DNA from: Candidatus Raymondbacteria bacterium RIFOXYA2_FULL_49_16
GTDB lineage: Bacteria; Fibrobacterota; OXYB2-FULL-49-7; XYB2-FULL-49-35
Assembly: GCA_001789205.1 (NCBI GenBank)
Contig: MFYT01000019.1
Coordinates: 1-64,000 of the forward strand
Length of the DNA: 64,000 nt
Reading direction: 5' to 3'
A program made the position numbers and the translations under genes. Below the pieces are notes generated by a model, which was not told the DNA's origin, ran no database searches, and saw only the letters and a list, made by a program, of their open reading frames with translations. Below are positions 20,078-28,254 of this stretch, in pieces. Numbering within the stretch: position 1 is the first letter of the stretch; every line of letters starts with the position of its first letter.

Positions 20078-20425
20078 ATGGATATTACCACTTATTCCGT
20101 CGGCGGATACGCCGTCATACTTATTAGCGAATCAGTCCGCAAGTACGAGGATGTTGTTTTTATCAAAAAAAAGATCAATGAGATTGTGGACAATGGCCAG
20201 ATGTTTATCGCCATCAACCTTTCCAAAGTCGATTATATGCACAGCTTTTTCATCAAGATACTCACGTCCAGCTACAAGAAGCTGGTGAAAAGCGGCGGTG
20301 ATATTGTGCTCATCGGGCCCAATGAATTCATCAGGAACCTCATCAATCTTCTCAATATCCATAAATACATCACTGTCTTCGAGAACGACGAAAGCTTCAG
20401 GGAATTCGTCAAGACCCATACCTAG
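20078..20425 (+). CDS. Single STAS-domain protein (anti-anti-sigma-like)
   Basis: The 115-residue protein is one STAS domain. The signature is FIAINLSKVDYMHSFFIKIL, where Ser near residue 60 lies where SpoIIAA-type proteins are phosphorylated; the preceding Asp is His. In classical systems the unphosphorylated STAS protein binds an RsbW/SpoIIAB kinase and frees a sigma factor. No sigma factor is adjacent. Its 3' end faces the tandem-STAS gene across 21 bp. It probably shares control with spoVG at 21346, since both have an AAGAAC...GTTCTT repeat upstream. I am confident of the fold, not of the partner. Confidence 0.85.
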   Translation: MDITTYSVGGYAVILISESVRKYEDVVFIKKKINEIVDNGQMFIAINLSKVDYMHSFFIKILTSSYKKLVKSGGDIVLIGPNEFIRNLINLLNIHKYITVFENDESFREFVKTHT

Positions 20426-20446: not shown

Positions 20447-21121
20447 TCAATTCCACGACCCTAGCGCTTTTTCACGCGAGGGGTAGATGGTCACAAAAGG
20501 CGATGAAATATGTTTTTCGCACGCCTGGAGGGTCGCGGCGTCGGAACAGAAGATGCGTACGCGTCCCTTTGACTGTTCAACGATTTTCTGGAGGCGCTTC
20601 ACGATAGGTTCAGTGATTGTGCATGCGGATACAAACCTGCTGATATCTATGAGGGTTTTGAATTCGTCGTTGAGAATGGTGTCGAGTGTGGTGATGTAGG
20701 TTTCGCAGTCTGTGTTTTCAGCTGGAAAGTCGCTGAATTTGAACACGCCCACGTTCTGAAAAAGGTCAAAATCCAGCTTAAGTGAAAGGGTCTCTTTTTT
20801 TTGACGCTCGGGCTGCTTATACGGTATCGAGGGCGCGTGCACTGTGAAGAAATTGACCAGACTGGTAGTTTCAAGCACCTTCAGATTGTCTTCGGACACA
20901 TTATCGAGAATTATGGCCCTGCCGTTTTCTTCGGCCATGTTGTGCAACTTAATGAGCGCGCCAATGGTCATACTATTCAGGAGAATAAGGTCCGCAAGAT
21001 CTATCCGCATGTTGCCGCTTTTCGATGAAGTCAGAAACTGAACGCCCATTTCGATTAATTCATTAGAATTGTAAAAGGTTATTTCCGCGGGCAGTTTGTA
21101 ACTGAATTCGTTATCTGGCAT
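20447..21121 (-). CDS. Tandem STAS-like regulatory protein
   Basis: I read this 224-residue protein as two STAS-like domains in a row. The first (about 1-105) has MRIDLADLILLNSMTIGAL, with Ser at the usual phosphosite, then a helix and AIILDNVSEDNLKVL. The second (about 115-224) has LIDISRFVSACTITEP, where Thr takes the Ser position, then VRIFCSDAATLQAC. It resembles the many STAS proteins around it, but two-domain forms are uncommon. It is divergent from spoVG and convergent with the single STAS gene. A role as a two-site switch or scaffold in the same pathway is inference. Confidence 0.65.
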   Translation of the reverse strand: MPDNEFSYKLPAEITFYNSNELIEMGVQFLTSSKSGNMRIDLADLILLNSMTIGALIKLHNMAEENGRAIILDNVSEDNLKVLETTSLVNFFTVHAPSIPYKQPERQKKETLSLKLDFDLFQNVGVFKFSDFPAENTDCETYITTLDTILNDEFKTLIDISRFVSACTITEPIVKRLQKIVEQSKGRVRIFCSDAATLQACEKHISSPFVTIYPSREKALGSWN

Positions 21122-21272: not shown

Positions 21273-21345
21273 TGATATTCCAGTCCGGTCCGTCCCATAA
21301 GCAAAACAATTGTATTACGTATATACCAAACTTAGGAGTTTTATT

Positions 21346-21621
21346 ATGAAGACGAACATCGAACTTACCGCCATTAAAGTGTATCCTTTCAAACAAGCAA
21401 AGGGAAAGATCAAAGGGTTTGTGCAGGTTGTGCTGAACAACGCGCTCAAGCTCAACGGTCTTAAAATCGTGGAAGGGGAAAACGGCCTCTTCCTGAGTTA
21501 TCCGTCTGAAAAGGGAAAGGATGGCAACTACTACAGCATCTACAATCCCATAACACGGGAGAGCAGAACCGAGATCCAGGACGCTGTCCTGGCGAATTAC
21601 GAGGCAGCGGTTTCGGCCTAA
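21346..21621 (+). CDS. spoVG: SpoVG family RNA/DNA-binding regulator, copy 1
   Basis: The start is ATG 21346 with TAGGAG nine bases upstream; the open frame extends to a TTG at 21310 that has no ribosome site. The 91-residue product is a full SpoVG domain: IKVYPF, IKGFVQVVLNNAL, then GLKIVEGENGLFLSYPSE and NPITRESRTEIQDAVL, which match the conserved family core. SpoVG binds nucleic acid and controls late or stress functions in Firmicutes and spirochaetes; in Gram-negative FCB-type bacteria its targets are unknown. It is followed 102 bp later by a second, diverged SpoVG, and both lie in a STAS-rich regulatory island. Confidence 0.9.
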   Translation: MKTNIELTAIKVYPFKQAKGKIKGFVQVVLNNALKLNGLKIVEGENGLFLSYPSEKGKDGNYYSIYNPITRESRTEIQDAVLANYEAAVSA

Positions 21622-21723: not shown

Positions 21724-22014
21724 ATGGAAAACGCAGTACTCGATATTACCGAACTCAGGATTTATCCAACAAAAAAAGAATCCGCTGTCAGGGCATTCTG
21801 CACAGCCACCTTCAACCACGCGCTATGCGTATCAGGCATCAGGATCAAGGAGGGAAAAAAGGGCGTCTATGTCGCCTTTCCCCTTTCCACAGGCGCAAAT
21901 GGCAAACGGCATCCGATTGTGTTTCCCGTGACCGGCGAAGCCAGGCGCGAGATTTCCAACAGGATTTTGGCCACGTACGTCATCAACCACTGTGTTGATG
22001 ATTATACGCTGTGA
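21724..22014 (+). CDS. SpoVG family regulator, diverged copy 2
   Basis: This 96-residue protein has the same layout as its neighbour (ITELRIYPT, then VRAFCTATFNHALCVSGIRI, GKKGVYVAFPLS and FPVTGEARREISNRIL), but differs at many positions: the GENGLF turn is GKKGVY and NPIT is FPVT. It retains the basic residues in the last helix. It has a good AAGGAG site and lies just before the STAS/ATPase/activator operon (31 bp to the next start). A tandem duplicate that has diverged, perhaps binding different nucleic-acid targets or forming heterodimers, is the simplest reading. Confidence 0.85.
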   Translation: MENAVLDITELRIYPTKKESAVRAFCTATFNHALCVSGIRIKEGKKGVYVAFPLSTGANGKRHPIVFPVTGEARREISNRILATYVINHCVDDYTL

Positions 22015-22044: not shown

Positions 22045-22407
22045 ATGTCAAACCTGAGGATTGTCGAACATAAGACCGGGCCAGCGGGTAATCTGATTGT
22101 CCTGCGAATAGAGGGGAGCATTGATCAGGCAAACATCGACCAGCTTCAAAAAACCATTGCACGGGTGGTGGCCGGGGGGTGCGCCAGGATCATCGCCAAC
22201 TGTGAAAAGCTCTCCTTTATCTCCAGCTCGGGCATTGGGGTCTTTATCGACCTGAAGGAGGTTTTGGGAGAGAAAAATGGCGAACTGGCCTTTGCCGCGG
22301 TCACGTCCAAATTCCTGAACATCTTTCATAAGGTCGGCGTGGACGAGCTCTTTACCATGTTTCCCGGAGAAAAAGAGGCCCTCAGCCATTTTAACCAGGG
22401 CGCTTAG
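22045..22407 (+). CDS. STAS-domain anti-anti-sigma factor-like protein
   Basis: This 120-residue single STAS domain is the most canonical of the group: LIVLRIEGSIDQANIDQL at the start and IIANCEKLSFISSSGIGVFI, with Ser at the site phosphorylated by RsbW-type kinases. It has a strong TAGGAGG site. The downstream ATPase-like gene starts 6 bp after its stop, the standard spoIIAA-spoIIAB or rsbV-rsbW order, followed 9 bp later by a sigma-54 activator. It is therefore probably the switch subunit of this operon, binding the ATPase-like protein. Confidence 0.93.
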   Translation: MSNLRIVEHKTGPAGNLIVLRIEGSIDQANIDQLQKTIARVVAGGCARIIANCEKLSFISSSGIGVFIDLKEVLGEKNGELAFAAVTSKFLNIFHKVGVDELFTMFPGEKEALSHFNQGA

Positions 22408-22413
22408 CGTTTC

Positions 22414-22812
22414 ATGAAGCGGTCATTTCCCTATTCACTCGAATCCCTTGCGGCGGTGCGTCAGCTTGCCGCTGATTTCTGCTCCAACAGCGCCATCAAC
22501 GAATTGGTGTGCGGTGAAATGGAGCTTGCGCTCAACGAGGCATGCACCCATATCATCAGCCACCGCGGCAGCAGCACCCAGCCGGACGAAACCTTCCACG
22601 TGACTCTTGCCACTGTGGGCGCCATGCTGGTCGCGTCTGTATCATTTCCCGGCAAACGATACAATTTTATGCAACCAACCAATACGGCGCGCGCCAAAGG
22701 ACCGGCCATGAGTCTCTTTGCCGCCTATGTGACCCGGAAAATGGTGGATATGGTCATGTATAATTATCTTCCCGGCAATATTAACGAGCTCCGGCTCATC
22801 AAGAACCTGTAA
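22414..22812 (+). CDS. RsbW-like ATPase-fold protein with degenerate nucleotide site
   Basis: The 132-residue protein follows a STAS gene and shows the RsbW/SpoIIAB fold: an N-terminal helix/strand region, then CGEMELALNEACTHIISH, which matches the N-box helix of HATPase_c_2 proteins. However, the key Asn of the usual NEACxN motif is His, and I see no DxGxG loop where it should follow (the region reads SVSFPGKRYNF). If so, it may not bind or hydrolyse ATP and may act as a binding scaffold, not a kinase. The operon order and domain match support the call; the loss of activity is inference. Confidence 0.75.
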   Translation: MKRSFPYSLESLAAVRQLAADFCSNSAINELVCGEMELALNEACTHIISHRGSSTQPDETFHVTLATVGAMLVASVSFPGKRYNFMQPTNTARAKGPAMSLFAAYVTRKMVDMVMYNYLPGNINELRLIKNL

Positions 22813-22821
22813 GGAGCGCGC

Positions 22822-24315
22822 GTGCCTGTTACTGAAAAAAAACAGCTCGAAAGCCTGTTGCAGGCAAGCGCGGCGCTCCATTCATCCATAGATCTGCCTG
22901 AACTTTTACGTAAAATGATCGACCTCATTTCCGGGGTTCTCGAATGTTCTGGCAGTTCCATCTATGTTTTTGACCAGGCAAAGGGCGAACTAGTGCTTGA
23001 GGCTGATACCGCGGGCAAGGACCTCAATCTCAAGATCGAGGCTGGACCCCGGGTATACGCCGCAGGCGTAGGCGTGCCGGTCCATGTGCGCGATTCCCGG
23101 ACCGACAAGCGGTGGGAGGCGTTGGCCCAGGGCGATGAAGGACCGCAGAGCGTGCTCTGTGTTCCCATGCAGTTCAACGGCCAGTCCGTAGGGGTCATTG
23201 AGGCCACGGATAAAAAGGATGGCGGGCAGTTCGACTACGATGATCTGCAGCTCTTCCAGGGTTTCGCTAATATCTGCGGGGCGGCCATTATAAATGCGCG
23301 GCGTTTTTCCGCGGTCTCGTCCGAAAACAGGAAGCTCAAGGAGACACTCGCGGGCAGCGTGGTCAACCTGATCGGCAATTCAACGGCCGTGCAGAAAATA
23401 ACCAGTGTTATCAAAAAAGTGGCGCATGTCGATTCCATTGTGCTCATTACCGGCGAGAGCGGCACGGGCAAGGAGATCATTGCCCGGAGCATCCATGCGC
23501 TTTCGGACCGCAAAGACAAGCCCTTTATTCCGGTCAACTGCGGTGCTGTGCCAGAGAACCTCCTTGAGAGCGAGCTCTTTGGCCACGAAAAAGGCGCTTT
23601 TACAGGCGCAGACCGCCAGCGCGCGGGCATTTTCGAGGAGGCCGAGGGCGGCACAGTGTTTCTCGACGAGATCGGCGAGACCTCGCTCACTACCCAGGTG
23701 AAGCTGCTCAGGGTGCTCCAGGAGGGCGCCTTCAAACGCGTGGGCTCTAACCGGGAAATAAAGTCGAATGTGCGTGTCATCTCAGCCACCAACCGGAAGC
23801 TTGAAGAGCTGGTCGCTGAAAAAAAATTCAGGGAAGACCTCTATTACCGGATCAATGTTGTGGCCATTCCTGTGCCACCCCTGCGCGAGCGCATGGACGA
23901 TCTGCCGGTGCTGGCCGGGTATTTTTTAAAGAAATCGTGCGAAAAGCTCAAAAAGAACAGTGCGGGCATTTCACCAGCGGTCATGCGCCTCTTTTTTTCC
24001 TATGAATGGAAGGGAAACGTGCGCGAATTGGAAAATACCATTGAATCCGCGGTTGCCATGAGTGAAGGTTCCTTCCTTGAACCCGGCGACCTTCCCGTCC
24101 GCTTTTCAAGCGCACTGAGCTCTGCGCCTGGATTCATGTCGCTTGCCCATCTCACGTACGACGAGGCAAAGGACGAGTTTGAAAAGCAGTATTTTTCAGG
24201 CCTGCTCCAGCTCCACAATGGCGATGTGCACAAGGCCGCTGAACAGTCGAAGGTGAGTGAGAAATCGATTGTACGCAGACGCCAGAGATTTGATATTTCC
24301 AAGAACAAAGAGTGA
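22822..24315 (+). CDS. GAF-domain sigma-54-dependent transcriptional activator
   Basis: The 497-residue protein starts at GTG after AAGGAG. An N-terminal GAF domain (about 20-165) probably senses a small molecule or protein. A sigma-54 AAA+ domain follows (about 184-405) with Walker A GESGTGKE, the sigma-54-contact loop ELFGHEKGAFTGA, Walker B GTVFLDEIGE, sensor RVISATNR and the arginine-finger FREDLYYR region. The C-terminus (about 445-497) has a Fis-like helix-turn-helix (NGDVHKAAEQSKVSEKS), though less typical than usual. It is the last gene of the STAS - RsbW-like operon. I infer that the upstream pair controls this activator in place of a sigma factor. Confidence 0.93.
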   Translation: MPVTEKKQLESLLQASAALHSSIDLPELLRKMIDLISGVLECSGSSIYVFDQAKGELVLEADTAGKDLNLKIEAGPRVYAAGVGVPVHVRDSRTDKRWEALAQGDEGPQSVLCVPMQFNGQSVGVIEATDKKDGGQFDYDDLQLFQGFANICGAAIINARRFSAVSSENRKLKETLAGSVVNLIGNSTAVQKITSVIKKVAHVDSIVLITGESGTGKEIIARSIHALSDRKDKPFIPVNCGAVPENLLESELFGHEKGAFTGADRQRAGIFEEAEGGTVFLDEIGETSLTTQVKLLRVLQEGAFKRVGSNREIKSNVRVISATNRKLEELVAEKKFREDLYYRINVVAIPVPPLRERMDDLPVLAGYFLKKSCEKLKKNSAGISPAVMRLFFSYEWKGNVRELENTIESAVAMSEGSFLEPGDLPVRFSSALSSAPGFMSLAHLTYDEAKDEFEKQYFSGLLQLHNGDVHKAAEQSKVSEKSIVRRRQRFDISKNKE

Positions 24316-24373: not shown

Positions 24374-26863
24374 TTATTTCATCAGATAGAGTTTGCCGAT
24401 CGCCGTTGTTGCGTCCGCAGCATACCGCACCAGATAGATACCCGATGCAACGGCTCTTCCCTGCGCGTCTTTTCCATTCCACATCGCACGGTACGCGCCC
24501 GCGCTGGCCAATGTCTTTGCCAGCGTTGTGATATGCCTGCCGTGCAGGTCAAAGATCGCTATTTCAATGTTCTGTTTTTTCTCCACTTCATACGCAATGG
24601 TCACCATGGGGTTAAAGGGGTTGGGCGAGAGCGAGGTAATGGCCGTGGTCATGGCGCGTGCGGGTGTTGGCGACCGTTTTTCAATGGCAATTACGCTGTT
24701 CTCCAGTTCATTGAACTTTGCCAGTAATAGGGACGATCCGATGTCCGGGGTCGCTGTTGAGGCCGGGTTTTTCGGCGCAAGTGTAATGGCAAAAAGGCCA
24801 GCGGACCCGTCAATAGGTTCTGTGCCTGCAAAGGCCATGCGAATGGACGTGTTCCGGGTGTTATAGGCGCAGGTAAAGCCAATGAGCGCGGCAAGAGGCT
24901 CCACAGAGACCAGATTGTATTGGGCCGCGTCAAACGCCATTGTCAGTTCACCGGAATAGACCCCCGCCATGTTTTCAGCCGCAATAGAGGTCGTAAAAAC
25001 ATTCTGCAGGTCAATGGCGGTCTCCGTGGTACGGGAGAAGGAATCGAGCACAACCTTGGCAACCGATCCGGCAAAGCGTTTTGACGGCGCAGGGTCATTG
25101 CTGTTTTGCCGGTTACCGCTTACATCGCCGATCAGAAGCGCCTGTATCTGCACATTGTGGATGGGCGCGGTCAGGGACTGGATGATGGTTGTTTCCGGGG
25201 TAACTATCCAACGGCCCAGCAGCGTATTGTCGTCAACGCCCACCAAGTACCTGAGTACCAGGGCAGCGTCAAAGGCGGTGATCATTTTATTGCCATTGAC
25301 GTCAGCGGCCGTGGTTTGTCCGGCAAAGTCATTCAGGGTCTTGAGCCCCACCAGAGACCTGAGAATGAGCGAAGCGTCATAGGCTGATATGCCATTTGCT
25401 ATATCACCAGAGTCCTTGGCGGCAATGAGCCTGAAGGGATCGGTCACTGTCCGGGGGAGGCTGGGGAAAACAAAGGAGCCAGCATTGTCCGAAATGGCCT
25501 TTGCAAGCGTATCGCCATTGGAGCGCAGCACAACCAGGCGCGCATTATCCACGCCTTTGCCGTTTGCCTTGTAGGTCACAGTACCGTCCACGCTGTAGTC
25601 AGGACTGGGTGCGCATTCCATGGAAATGGTCCCGGCCTTTGTTCCGGCAACAGGATCACCGTCGTTGAATACCGCCTTGGTAATCCTGAATACGATGTCT
25701 TTGCCGCATGCGCTTCCAGGAATGACTGTGCGGATGGTGAAAAGCGGCCCTGTGCCTTCGAGCGGCTGCGTCTGGGCAAAGGCGATCTTGATGGATCCGG
25801 ACGTGAGATTTTTCGCAATGGTAGCGCTGGCAATGATCGATCCGGCGGTATCGATGCCGATCACCGTTGCTTCGCTTGCGGTATACGTCAGTTCAATGTT
25901 GCCAGAAACAATCGCATAGCCGTCGGTAGGGGTCACGCTGACCGGATAGTCGAGTGTGTCATTGGCCGAGACATTCGTATCGTTCGTGAATACGACAAGG
26001 TCAGTAACCGTGATCTGCCAGGCCTGACGCGCATAGGCGCCGTATCTGTCATACGCGTCAGCCACAACTGTATGCGTCCCAATGTCGAGGAATTTTGGAT
26101 ACCAGGTAATAAGCCCGGTAAGCGAATCAATCTGCATGTTCAGGGGTTTTGTTGGCAAACGGTATTTAATAGTGTCATTGTCAGCATCTGTTGCAGTGAT
26201 ACGGTATTCATATTTGAGTCCCGCAATGGCTTCTTTTATAGGCGCAGAGGAAATCTGCGGGGCATGGTTGTTGGACCCTGTTCTCGGATAGAGCGCGGTA
26301 ATGCCAAGGCTGTCGTCAGTCGCAAGATGGCGGTGCGACGTGTCGCCTTTTGACGCATAGGCATACATGACCGCTTTGGTCACGCTGGTGTGGCCAAGAC
26401 CAAGCGCATGGCCTATTTCATGCGTGGCAATGTGGCCCACGTCCATTTTTCCGGATTCCGCGCTGGTCGACCACTGGAAATCACGGCCGTTGAAGATAAT
26501 ATCAAAATCAGAAAGGGCTGAGCTGCTATACCAGTAATAGCACACGGCAATCACGTTGCCGTCAAAGGGAAAACCGCTGCCTTCTTCCCATTTGAGTATA
26601 TTTGCTTTGTCGGGCGCCACGCTCTTGGAAGCTGTTGTTCCCACGTATTGCGTGCGGATGGCTGTTCCGGGCGCTTCGCTCCAAACCGAAAAACCCCGGT
26701 GAATCGCGTCGAATTCATTGGTCACATCAGGCGTGCCTTCTTCGTTTATGCAGTATTTCACCTCAGGGTTTGTTCCCTGCCATTTGGGGCCAAGGAACAC
26801 ATAGGAAAAGCACCAGGTGCACAAGAAAAGAACTGAAAGAATCAGAGTATGAATGGTTTTCAT
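24374..26863 (-). CDS. Secreted matrixin-type metalloprotease with cohesin-like and dockerin-like modules
   Basis: The 829-residue protein has a signal peptide (about 1-20) and a matrixin/metzincin catalytic domain (about 21-195) with HEIGHALGLGH (His148, Glu149, His152, His158) and a VMYAY Met-turn. A cadherin/He_PIG-like domain (about 200-288) follows, then a cohesin-like beta sandwich (about 289-415), a carboxypeptidase-regulatory-like unit leading into a dockerin-like segment (about 420-585, with ISAYDASLILRSLVG and DVNGNKMITAFDAALVLRYLVG), and a second cohesin-like domain (about 605-725). It ends in a type-IX/FlgD-like sorting module (LSPNPFNP..., WNGKDAQGR, GIY). Cohesin and dockerin are the interacting pair of cellulosomes; having both in one protease is unusual. 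It is last of a three-gene operon and would be a surface or secreted protease. Confidence 0.85.
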   Translation of the reverse strand: MKTIHTLILSVLFLCTWCFSYVFLGPKWQGTNPEVKYCINEEGTPDVTNEFDAIHRGFSVWSEAPGTAIRTQYVGTTASKSVAPDKANILKWEEGSGFPFDGNVIAVCYYWYSSSALSDFDIIFNGRDFQWSTSAESGKMDVGHIATHEIGHALGLGHTSVTKAVMYAYASKGDTSHRHLATDDSLGITALYPRTGSNNHAPQISSAPIKEAIAGLKYEYRITATDADNDTIKYRLPTKPLNMQIDSLTGLITWYPKFLDIGTHTVVADAYDRYGAYARQAWQITVTDLVVFTNDTNVSANDTLDYPVSVTPTDGYAIVSGNIELTYTASEATVIGIDTAGSIIASATIAKNLTSGSIKIAFAQTQPLEGTGPLFTIRTVIPGSACGKDIVFRITKAVFNDGDPVAGTKAGTISMECAPSPDYSVDGTVTYKANGKGVDNARLVVLRSNGDTLAKAISDNAGSFVFPSLPRTVTDPFRLIAAKDSGDIANGISAYDASLILRSLVGLKTLNDFAGQTTAADVNGNKMITAFDAALVLRYLVGVDDNTLLGRWIVTPETTIIQSLTAPIHNVQIQALLIGDVSGNRQNSNDPAPSKRFAGSVAKVVLDSFSRTTETAIDLQNVFTTSIAAENMAGVYSGELTMAFDAAQYNLVSVEPLAALIGFTCAYNTRNTSIRMAFAGTEPIDGSAGLFAITLAPKNPASTATPDIGSSLLLAKFNELENSVIAIEKRSPTPARAMTTAITSLSPNPFNPMVTIAYEVEKKQNIEIAIFDLHGRHITTLAKTLASAGAYRAMWNGKDAQGRAVASGIYLVRYAADATTAIGKLYLMK

Positions 26864-27787: not shown

Positions 27788-27876
27788 CAGGATTATTGTG
27801 CTATCGGCATAACCAACTGATTTTCAATGCCATATGATGCGGCATTGTGTTTGCGAAACCAGTGGTGGAGGCACAC

Positions 27877-28254
27877 ATGACAATGAACTATGAGACAATG
27901 ACAGTGACCATGCGTGAAATCGGGTATCTTTCGGTAGTGGAATTCATCGGAAAACTCGACAACAGGAACCTGAATAGTGTCAATCGTCTTTGCATCCACC
28001 TGATGACAAAACAGGTCAGTGAATTTGTTTTTGATCTTTCAAAGGTCCTGGATATCTCAAACGCGGTCATGACAATGTTTGTCAATTTCGGCAGGAAAAT
28101 CCGTGAAGCCGGAGGCAGGTTCTTCATTATGAAACTGAATCCGCACATTGCTGATAAAATCGCCAGGGTAAAGGAACACGAGGACAAAATCGGCTATTTT
28201 GCCGACGAAGAAGAGGCGGAGGATTTTATCCTTCACGACAACAAGTATCTGTAA
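27877..28254 (+). CDS. STAS-domain protein lacking the usual phosphosite Ser
   Basis: The ATG at 27877 follows GGTGGAGG, while an upstream GTG at 27847 has no ribosome site, so I start at 27877 (125 residues). It is a single STAS domain: LSVVEFIGKLDNRNLNSVN and FVFDLSKVLDISNAVMTMF. Aligned with the DLSGVTFMDSSGL-type core, Asn falls at the phosphorylated Ser position, so it may not be phosphorylated and could act as a constitutive binder or decoy. It lies next to a receiver-domain remnant and divergent from the matrixin operon, with a palindrome cluster between. Confidence 0.75.
   Translation: MTMNYETMTVTMREIGYLSVVEFIGKLDNRNLNSVNRLCIHLMTKQVSEFVFDLSKVLDISNAVMTMFVNFGRKIREAGGRFFIMKLNPHIADKIARVKEHEDKIGYFADEEEAEDFILHDNKYL

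Follow-up and report, generated by a model that had tools for sequence, protein, structure and literature searches.

The genome of Candidatus Raymondbacteria RIFOXYA2_FULL_49_16 (Fibrobacterota) carries, at 22045-24315 on the plus strand of contig MFYT01000019.1, three adjacent genes that encode a STAS protein, an RsbW-like protein and a sigma-54 activator. The best single reading of this trio, which we advance tentatively, is that of an anti-activator switch built from duplicated partner-switch parts, in which the RsbW-like protein would act by binding. The genes of the trio and the two directly upstream are listed below, with coordinates given for the window, by which we mean the whole 64,000-nucleotide stretch of the contig that was analyzed.

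21343..21621, plus strand: second SpoVG-like gene, about 100 bp further upstream than the next (PF04026, 9.7e-23)
21724..22014, plus strand: SpoVG-like gene, 30 bp 5' of the STAS gene (PF04026, 1.1e-18)
22045..22407, plus strand: single-domain STAS protein, RsbV/SpoIIAA-like, 120 aa; start ATG, stop TAG (PF01740, 6.2e-19)
22414..22812, plus strand: RsbW/SpoIIAB-fold protein with a degenerate ATP site, 132 aa; start ATG, stop TAA (PF13581, HATPase_c_2, 6.1e-9)
22822..24315, plus strand: GAF - AAA+ sigma-54 activator - Fis HTH protein, 497 aa; start GTG (Sigma54_activat, 1.3e-73)

The three ORFs of the trio are co-directional and share one reading frame, with gaps of 6 bp between the STAS and RsbW-like genes and 9 bp between the RsbW-like and activator genes, and AAGGAG precedes the GTG start of the latter. 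The initial annotation had described a compact operon with a sigma-54 activator rather than a sigma factor as its third gene, and both descriptions are borne out: the spacing is as stated, the activator is complete as judged by its Pfam domains and intact motifs, and the operon contains no sigma factor gene, the activator gene taking the third place. Also absent from the operon are an intact kinase gene and a PP2C/SpoIIE phosphatase gene, with SpoIIE-family proteins being encoded elsewhere in the genome. The two SpoVG-like genes had gone unmentioned in the initial annotation. Because the nearer SpoVG-like gene ends only 30 bp before the STAS gene, the two are possibly on one transcript, and the transcript of the switch would then extend beyond the three genes. 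Near the operon, sigma-54 promoter-like sites were matched at chance level only, no repeats or dyads were found as candidate activator sites, and a search for phage origin gave no PHROG match.

Three other STAS genes lie less than 4 kb from the trio, at 20078-20425 (plus strand), 20447-21121 (minus strand) and 27874-28254 (plus strand). One of these, at 224 aa, has roughly double the usual length, and the canonical SSG loop is found in none of the three. A gene at 24374-26863 (minus strand) encodes a secreted matrixin-type metalloprotease with cohesin-like, dockerin and Por/FlgD-like sorting domains. On the same contig, just past the right end of the window, lies a SpoIIE-family phosphatase gene (G000:C19:64636-65208).

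The RsbW-like protein appears to have kept the fold of its family and lost the ATP site. Its match to PF13581 is over the Pfam cut-off, and its AlphaFold2 model (pLDDT 86, pTM 0.81) has as best Foldseek matches the anti-SigF factor UsfX (top), SpoIIAB and RsbW, with E of about 1e-6; a single-sequence PDB search gave no match, a limit that profile searches overcame. We read the ATP-site motifs from a pairwise alignment with a paralogue in the same genome and from a 16-sequence alignment of relatives from the phylum. In the N-box, N46 is replaced by His (NEACTH), while the Glu of the same box, E42, is kept and is invariant across the 16 sequences. The Asp of G1 is replaced by Phe (SFPGKRY), and G2 lacks its GxG (AMSLFAA). 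In each of the 15 aligned relatives, the Asn of the N-box and the glycines of G2 are kept. The earlier observation that the protein lacks an N-box Asn and a visible DxGxG loop therefore holds by profile alignment, with all three ATP motifs substituted, and this loss lends support to the accompanying view of a non-catalytic protein. As the model matches UsfX, SpoIIAB and RsbW and the motifs are lost, we regard the protein as having an anti-sigma family fold without that family's ATP site. On these residues, it almost certainly does not function as an ATP-dependent kinase, and we infer that it does not bind ATP.

When the STAS protein is aligned to SpoIIAA structures, its FISSSGIG segment falls on FMDSSGLG of SpoIIAA, so that the phospho-acceptor Ser62 (in FISSSG) is retained, and its Asp27 aligns with the Asp of the SpoIIAA GELD motif (D23). 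Against TIGR00377, it scores 53.2 bits, with the cut-off at 53.45. The RsbW-like protein has an Arg, R16, at the position that we take to match R20 of SpoIIAB. With the phospho-Ser and the Asp corresponding to SpoIIAA D23 kept on one side and R16 present on the other, docking of the STAS protein on the RsbW-like protein is plausible.

The same genome encodes, on another contig (L004:5566-7924), a canonical module consisting of an sCache-HAMP-SpoIIE phosphatase, a STAS protein in which the phospho-acceptor Ser is also kept, and an RsbW with intact motifs. The paralogous STAS and RsbW genes are 3 bp apart, and their products are 38% and 40% identical, respectively, to those of the window pair. 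Directly after this module comes a FapA-like gene and not a sigma factor gene. Given the intact paralogous module, the sequences indicate that the window pair arose as a duplicate of an ordinary partner switch and has since diverged; it has no phosphatase, and its kinase is degenerate. Since the window STAS protein keeps its phospho-Ser, it is conceivable that the intact paralogous RsbW phosphorylates it in trans.

The presence of this paralogue also bears on the foremost alternative, in which the STAS/RsbW-like pair serves other partners, either through heterodimer formation or competition with the paralogous RsbW or through binding of a sigma factor, with the activator being simply co-transcribed. 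A precedent is found in Mycobacterium smegmatis, where RsbW3 is inactive as a kinase on the STAS protein RsfB and binds RsbW1, thereby activating SigF (PMC7693655), and the intact, 40% identical RsbW would offer a comparable target. The genome also encodes several sigma-70-family factors related to SigB/F/G, but none reaches the SigB/F/G cut-off, and the gene that lies 9 bp downstream is that of an activator and not of a sigma factor. We consider this alternative somewhat unlikely.

The activator itself has intact Walker A (GESGTGKE), Walker B (VFLDEIGE) and GAFTGA motifs. In addition to the strong Sigma54_activat match, it has a GAF domain (about 1e-13) and a weak Fis HTH_8 match (0.077), and its best NCBIfam model is NifA, at 384.3 bits and thus below the cut-off of 528.85. 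Because these motifs are intact and RpoN is encoded in the genome, the protein should, judging from its sequence, function as a sigma-54 activator. Among the 27 full-length sigma-54 activator matches in the genome, it is the only one with STAS and RsbW-like neighbors. For a genome assumed to have 4,500 genes, with roughly 27 activators and some five free-standing genes of the RsbW-like type, we estimate that a same-strand activator would be the downstream neighbor of such a gene by chance in about 2-3% of such genomes; for this reason, the adjacency of the RsbW-like and activator genes is by itself not strong and, taken alone, is suggestive.

The initial annotation had named in advance a lack of gene-order conservation in relatives as evidence against its proposal, and such conservation was not found: the trio was seen in a single genome only, in a comparison that covered genomes of Fibrobacterota and, beyond that phylum, two contig scans. 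A profile search across 168 genomes of the phylum recovered no close relative of the RsbW-like protein besides the paralogue in the same genome, and a contig scan by exact short peptides, a method of limited recall, recovered no orthologues. Among the RsbW-like and STAS loci fetched from the phylum, an adjoining activator was seen at the window locus alone. When the coordinates of HATPase_c_2 matches and activators were compared in five genomes from other families within the phylum, no trio was found. The sole close pair there with a strong HATPase_c_2 match (L172:1591-4857) proved to be an NtrYX-like two-component pair, after which comes a PAS-SpoIIE-HATPase_c_2 fusion protein; it is not the trio and is a separate case of an RsbW-type domain near a sigma-54 activator.

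One orthologue of the activator was found, in a genome of the same taxonomic order (JAEUSG010000297.1; 53% identity over its length). The gene before it is an AAA_14/DUF4143 gene, and neither a STAS nor an RsbW gene adjoins it; the activator thus appears able to exist without these partners. This observation is in line with a second alternative, in which ligand binding to the GAF domain governs the activator, as in NifA or NorR, and the STAS/RsbW-like pair is a remnant that came to lie next to it and is now decaying under relaxed selection. The GAF domain is well preserved and every ATP motif is gone from the RsbW-like protein, a loss that could equally arise under relaxed selection. Against decay, however, the RsbW-like ORF is full length and free of internal stops, its third-position GC (0.67) is like that of the STAS (0.67) and activator (0.65) genes, and its product is over the Pfam cut-off and gives a confident fold model. 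Nor would a decaying gene usually retain gaps of 6 and 9 bp on its two sides, and we therefore judge a remnant to be unlikely.

In the anti-activator switch that we favor tentatively, the RsbW-like protein would act by binding alone: by engaging the GAF or AAA+ domain of the neighboring activator, it would keep that protein inactive in the way that NifL inhibits NifA. The unphosphorylated STAS protein would draw the RsbW-like protein off and thereby free the activator. Phosphorylation of the STAS protein is probably beyond the RsbW-like protein, so that a kinase/phosphatase pair, such as the paralogous RsbW and SpoIIE phosphatase on the other contig, would provide the input in trans, along with a ligand bound by the GAF domain of the activator. 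In this full form, with an RsbW-fold pseudokinase as the anti-activator, a STAS antagonist and phosphorylation in trans from the intact module, we regard the scheme as possible rather than probable. Supporting an anti-activator are the tight co-directional spacing, the loss of ATP motifs from a retained fold, the intact paralogous module, the intact activator motifs together with RpoN, the unique STAS/RsbW-like neighborhood among the 27 activators, and the precedents of NifL-NifA (PMC12998174) and of kinase-inactive RsbW homologues in M. smegmatis (PMC7693655). It is weakened by the orthologue without partners, the occurrence in one genome, the lack of an operon phosphatase or intact kinase, and promoter matches at chance level. 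The mechanism is thus a tentative one: we infer binding from the gene adjacency in a single genome, the lost motifs and the analogy to known systems. That the RsbW-like protein is instead a positive partner, freed by the STAS protein to stimulate the activator as RsbT does RsbU, is very unlikely: RsbT freed from sequestration does activate RsbU by binding (PMC12143880), and the gene arrangement does not give the sign of the effect, but the target of RsbT is a phosphatase, the closest folds to the RsbW-like protein are anti-sigma factors, and in NifL-NifA, the nearest precedent with an activator, the effect is inhibition.

Should the binding prove real, partner switching would extend from the release of sigma factors to the release of a sigma-54 activator, and the RsbW fold could persist purely as a binding module. 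Anti-activation of the NifL-NifA kind could likewise arise from a different GHKL lineage, and the trio would provide a simple three-gene system for studying pseudokinase rewiring after duplication. In the open-access literature, to which our search was confined, we found no described case of an RsbW-type protein controlling a sigma-54 activator or of sigma-54 activators under partner switching. The arrangement may thus be a new wiring of known parts in a single genome. The initial annotation knew of no described system of this form; within the literature searched, this stands for the combination of an RsbW-type protein with a sigma-54 activator but not for the underlying logic, as in NifL-NifA a non-kinase GHKL protein inhibits an activator by binding. 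Its premise that the output of known partner switches is a sigma factor does not hold, as STAS switches whose output is something else than a known sigma factor have been reviewed (PMC8256260) and discussed (PMC10120452), with SypA, HmpV and RbaV as examples.

When compared with the RsbU-RsbV-RsbW and SpoIIE-SpoIIAA-SpoIIAB systems, the trio is alike in that one operon encodes a phospho-Ser STAS protein and, after it, a protein of the RsbW/SpoIIAB fold, whereas it differs in lacking the ATP-site motifs, an operon phosphatase and a sigma factor, with a sigma-54 activator as the third gene. The SypA/SypE/SypG system of Vibrio fischeri (PMC10120452) likewise brings together, within a single gene system, a STAS protein, a kinase of the RsbW type and an activator of transcription, but SypE is an active kinase/phosphatase, and the target of SypA is a separate one that is not reached through SypG. 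Also comparable are mycobacterial RsbW1/UsfX and RsbW3 (PMC7693655; 8jzt, 8ih8), which have the RsbW fold and no kinase activity towards RsfB and act by binding alone, RsbW3 probably working on RsbW1 as a heterodimer; their targets, however, are SigF or another RsbW and not a sigma-54 activator. In NifL-NifA of Azotobacter vinelandii (PMC12998174), the GHKL/DHp domains of NifL bind the AAA+ domain of NifA and block this GAF/AAA+/HTH activator without kinase activity. NifL differs in being a histidine-kinase-related protein with PAS, DHp and GHKL domains and in having no STAS antagonist, whereas the protein described here is a single RsbW-type HATPase_c_2 domain of 132 aa, and its activator is below the NifA cut-off. 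The two systems nevertheless share a non-kinase GHKL-fold protein paired with a GAF/AAA+/Fis activator and, as proposed here, control by binding, and on the best reading, the Raymondbacteria switch would be NifL-NifA-like in its logic and made of RsbV/RsbW parts.
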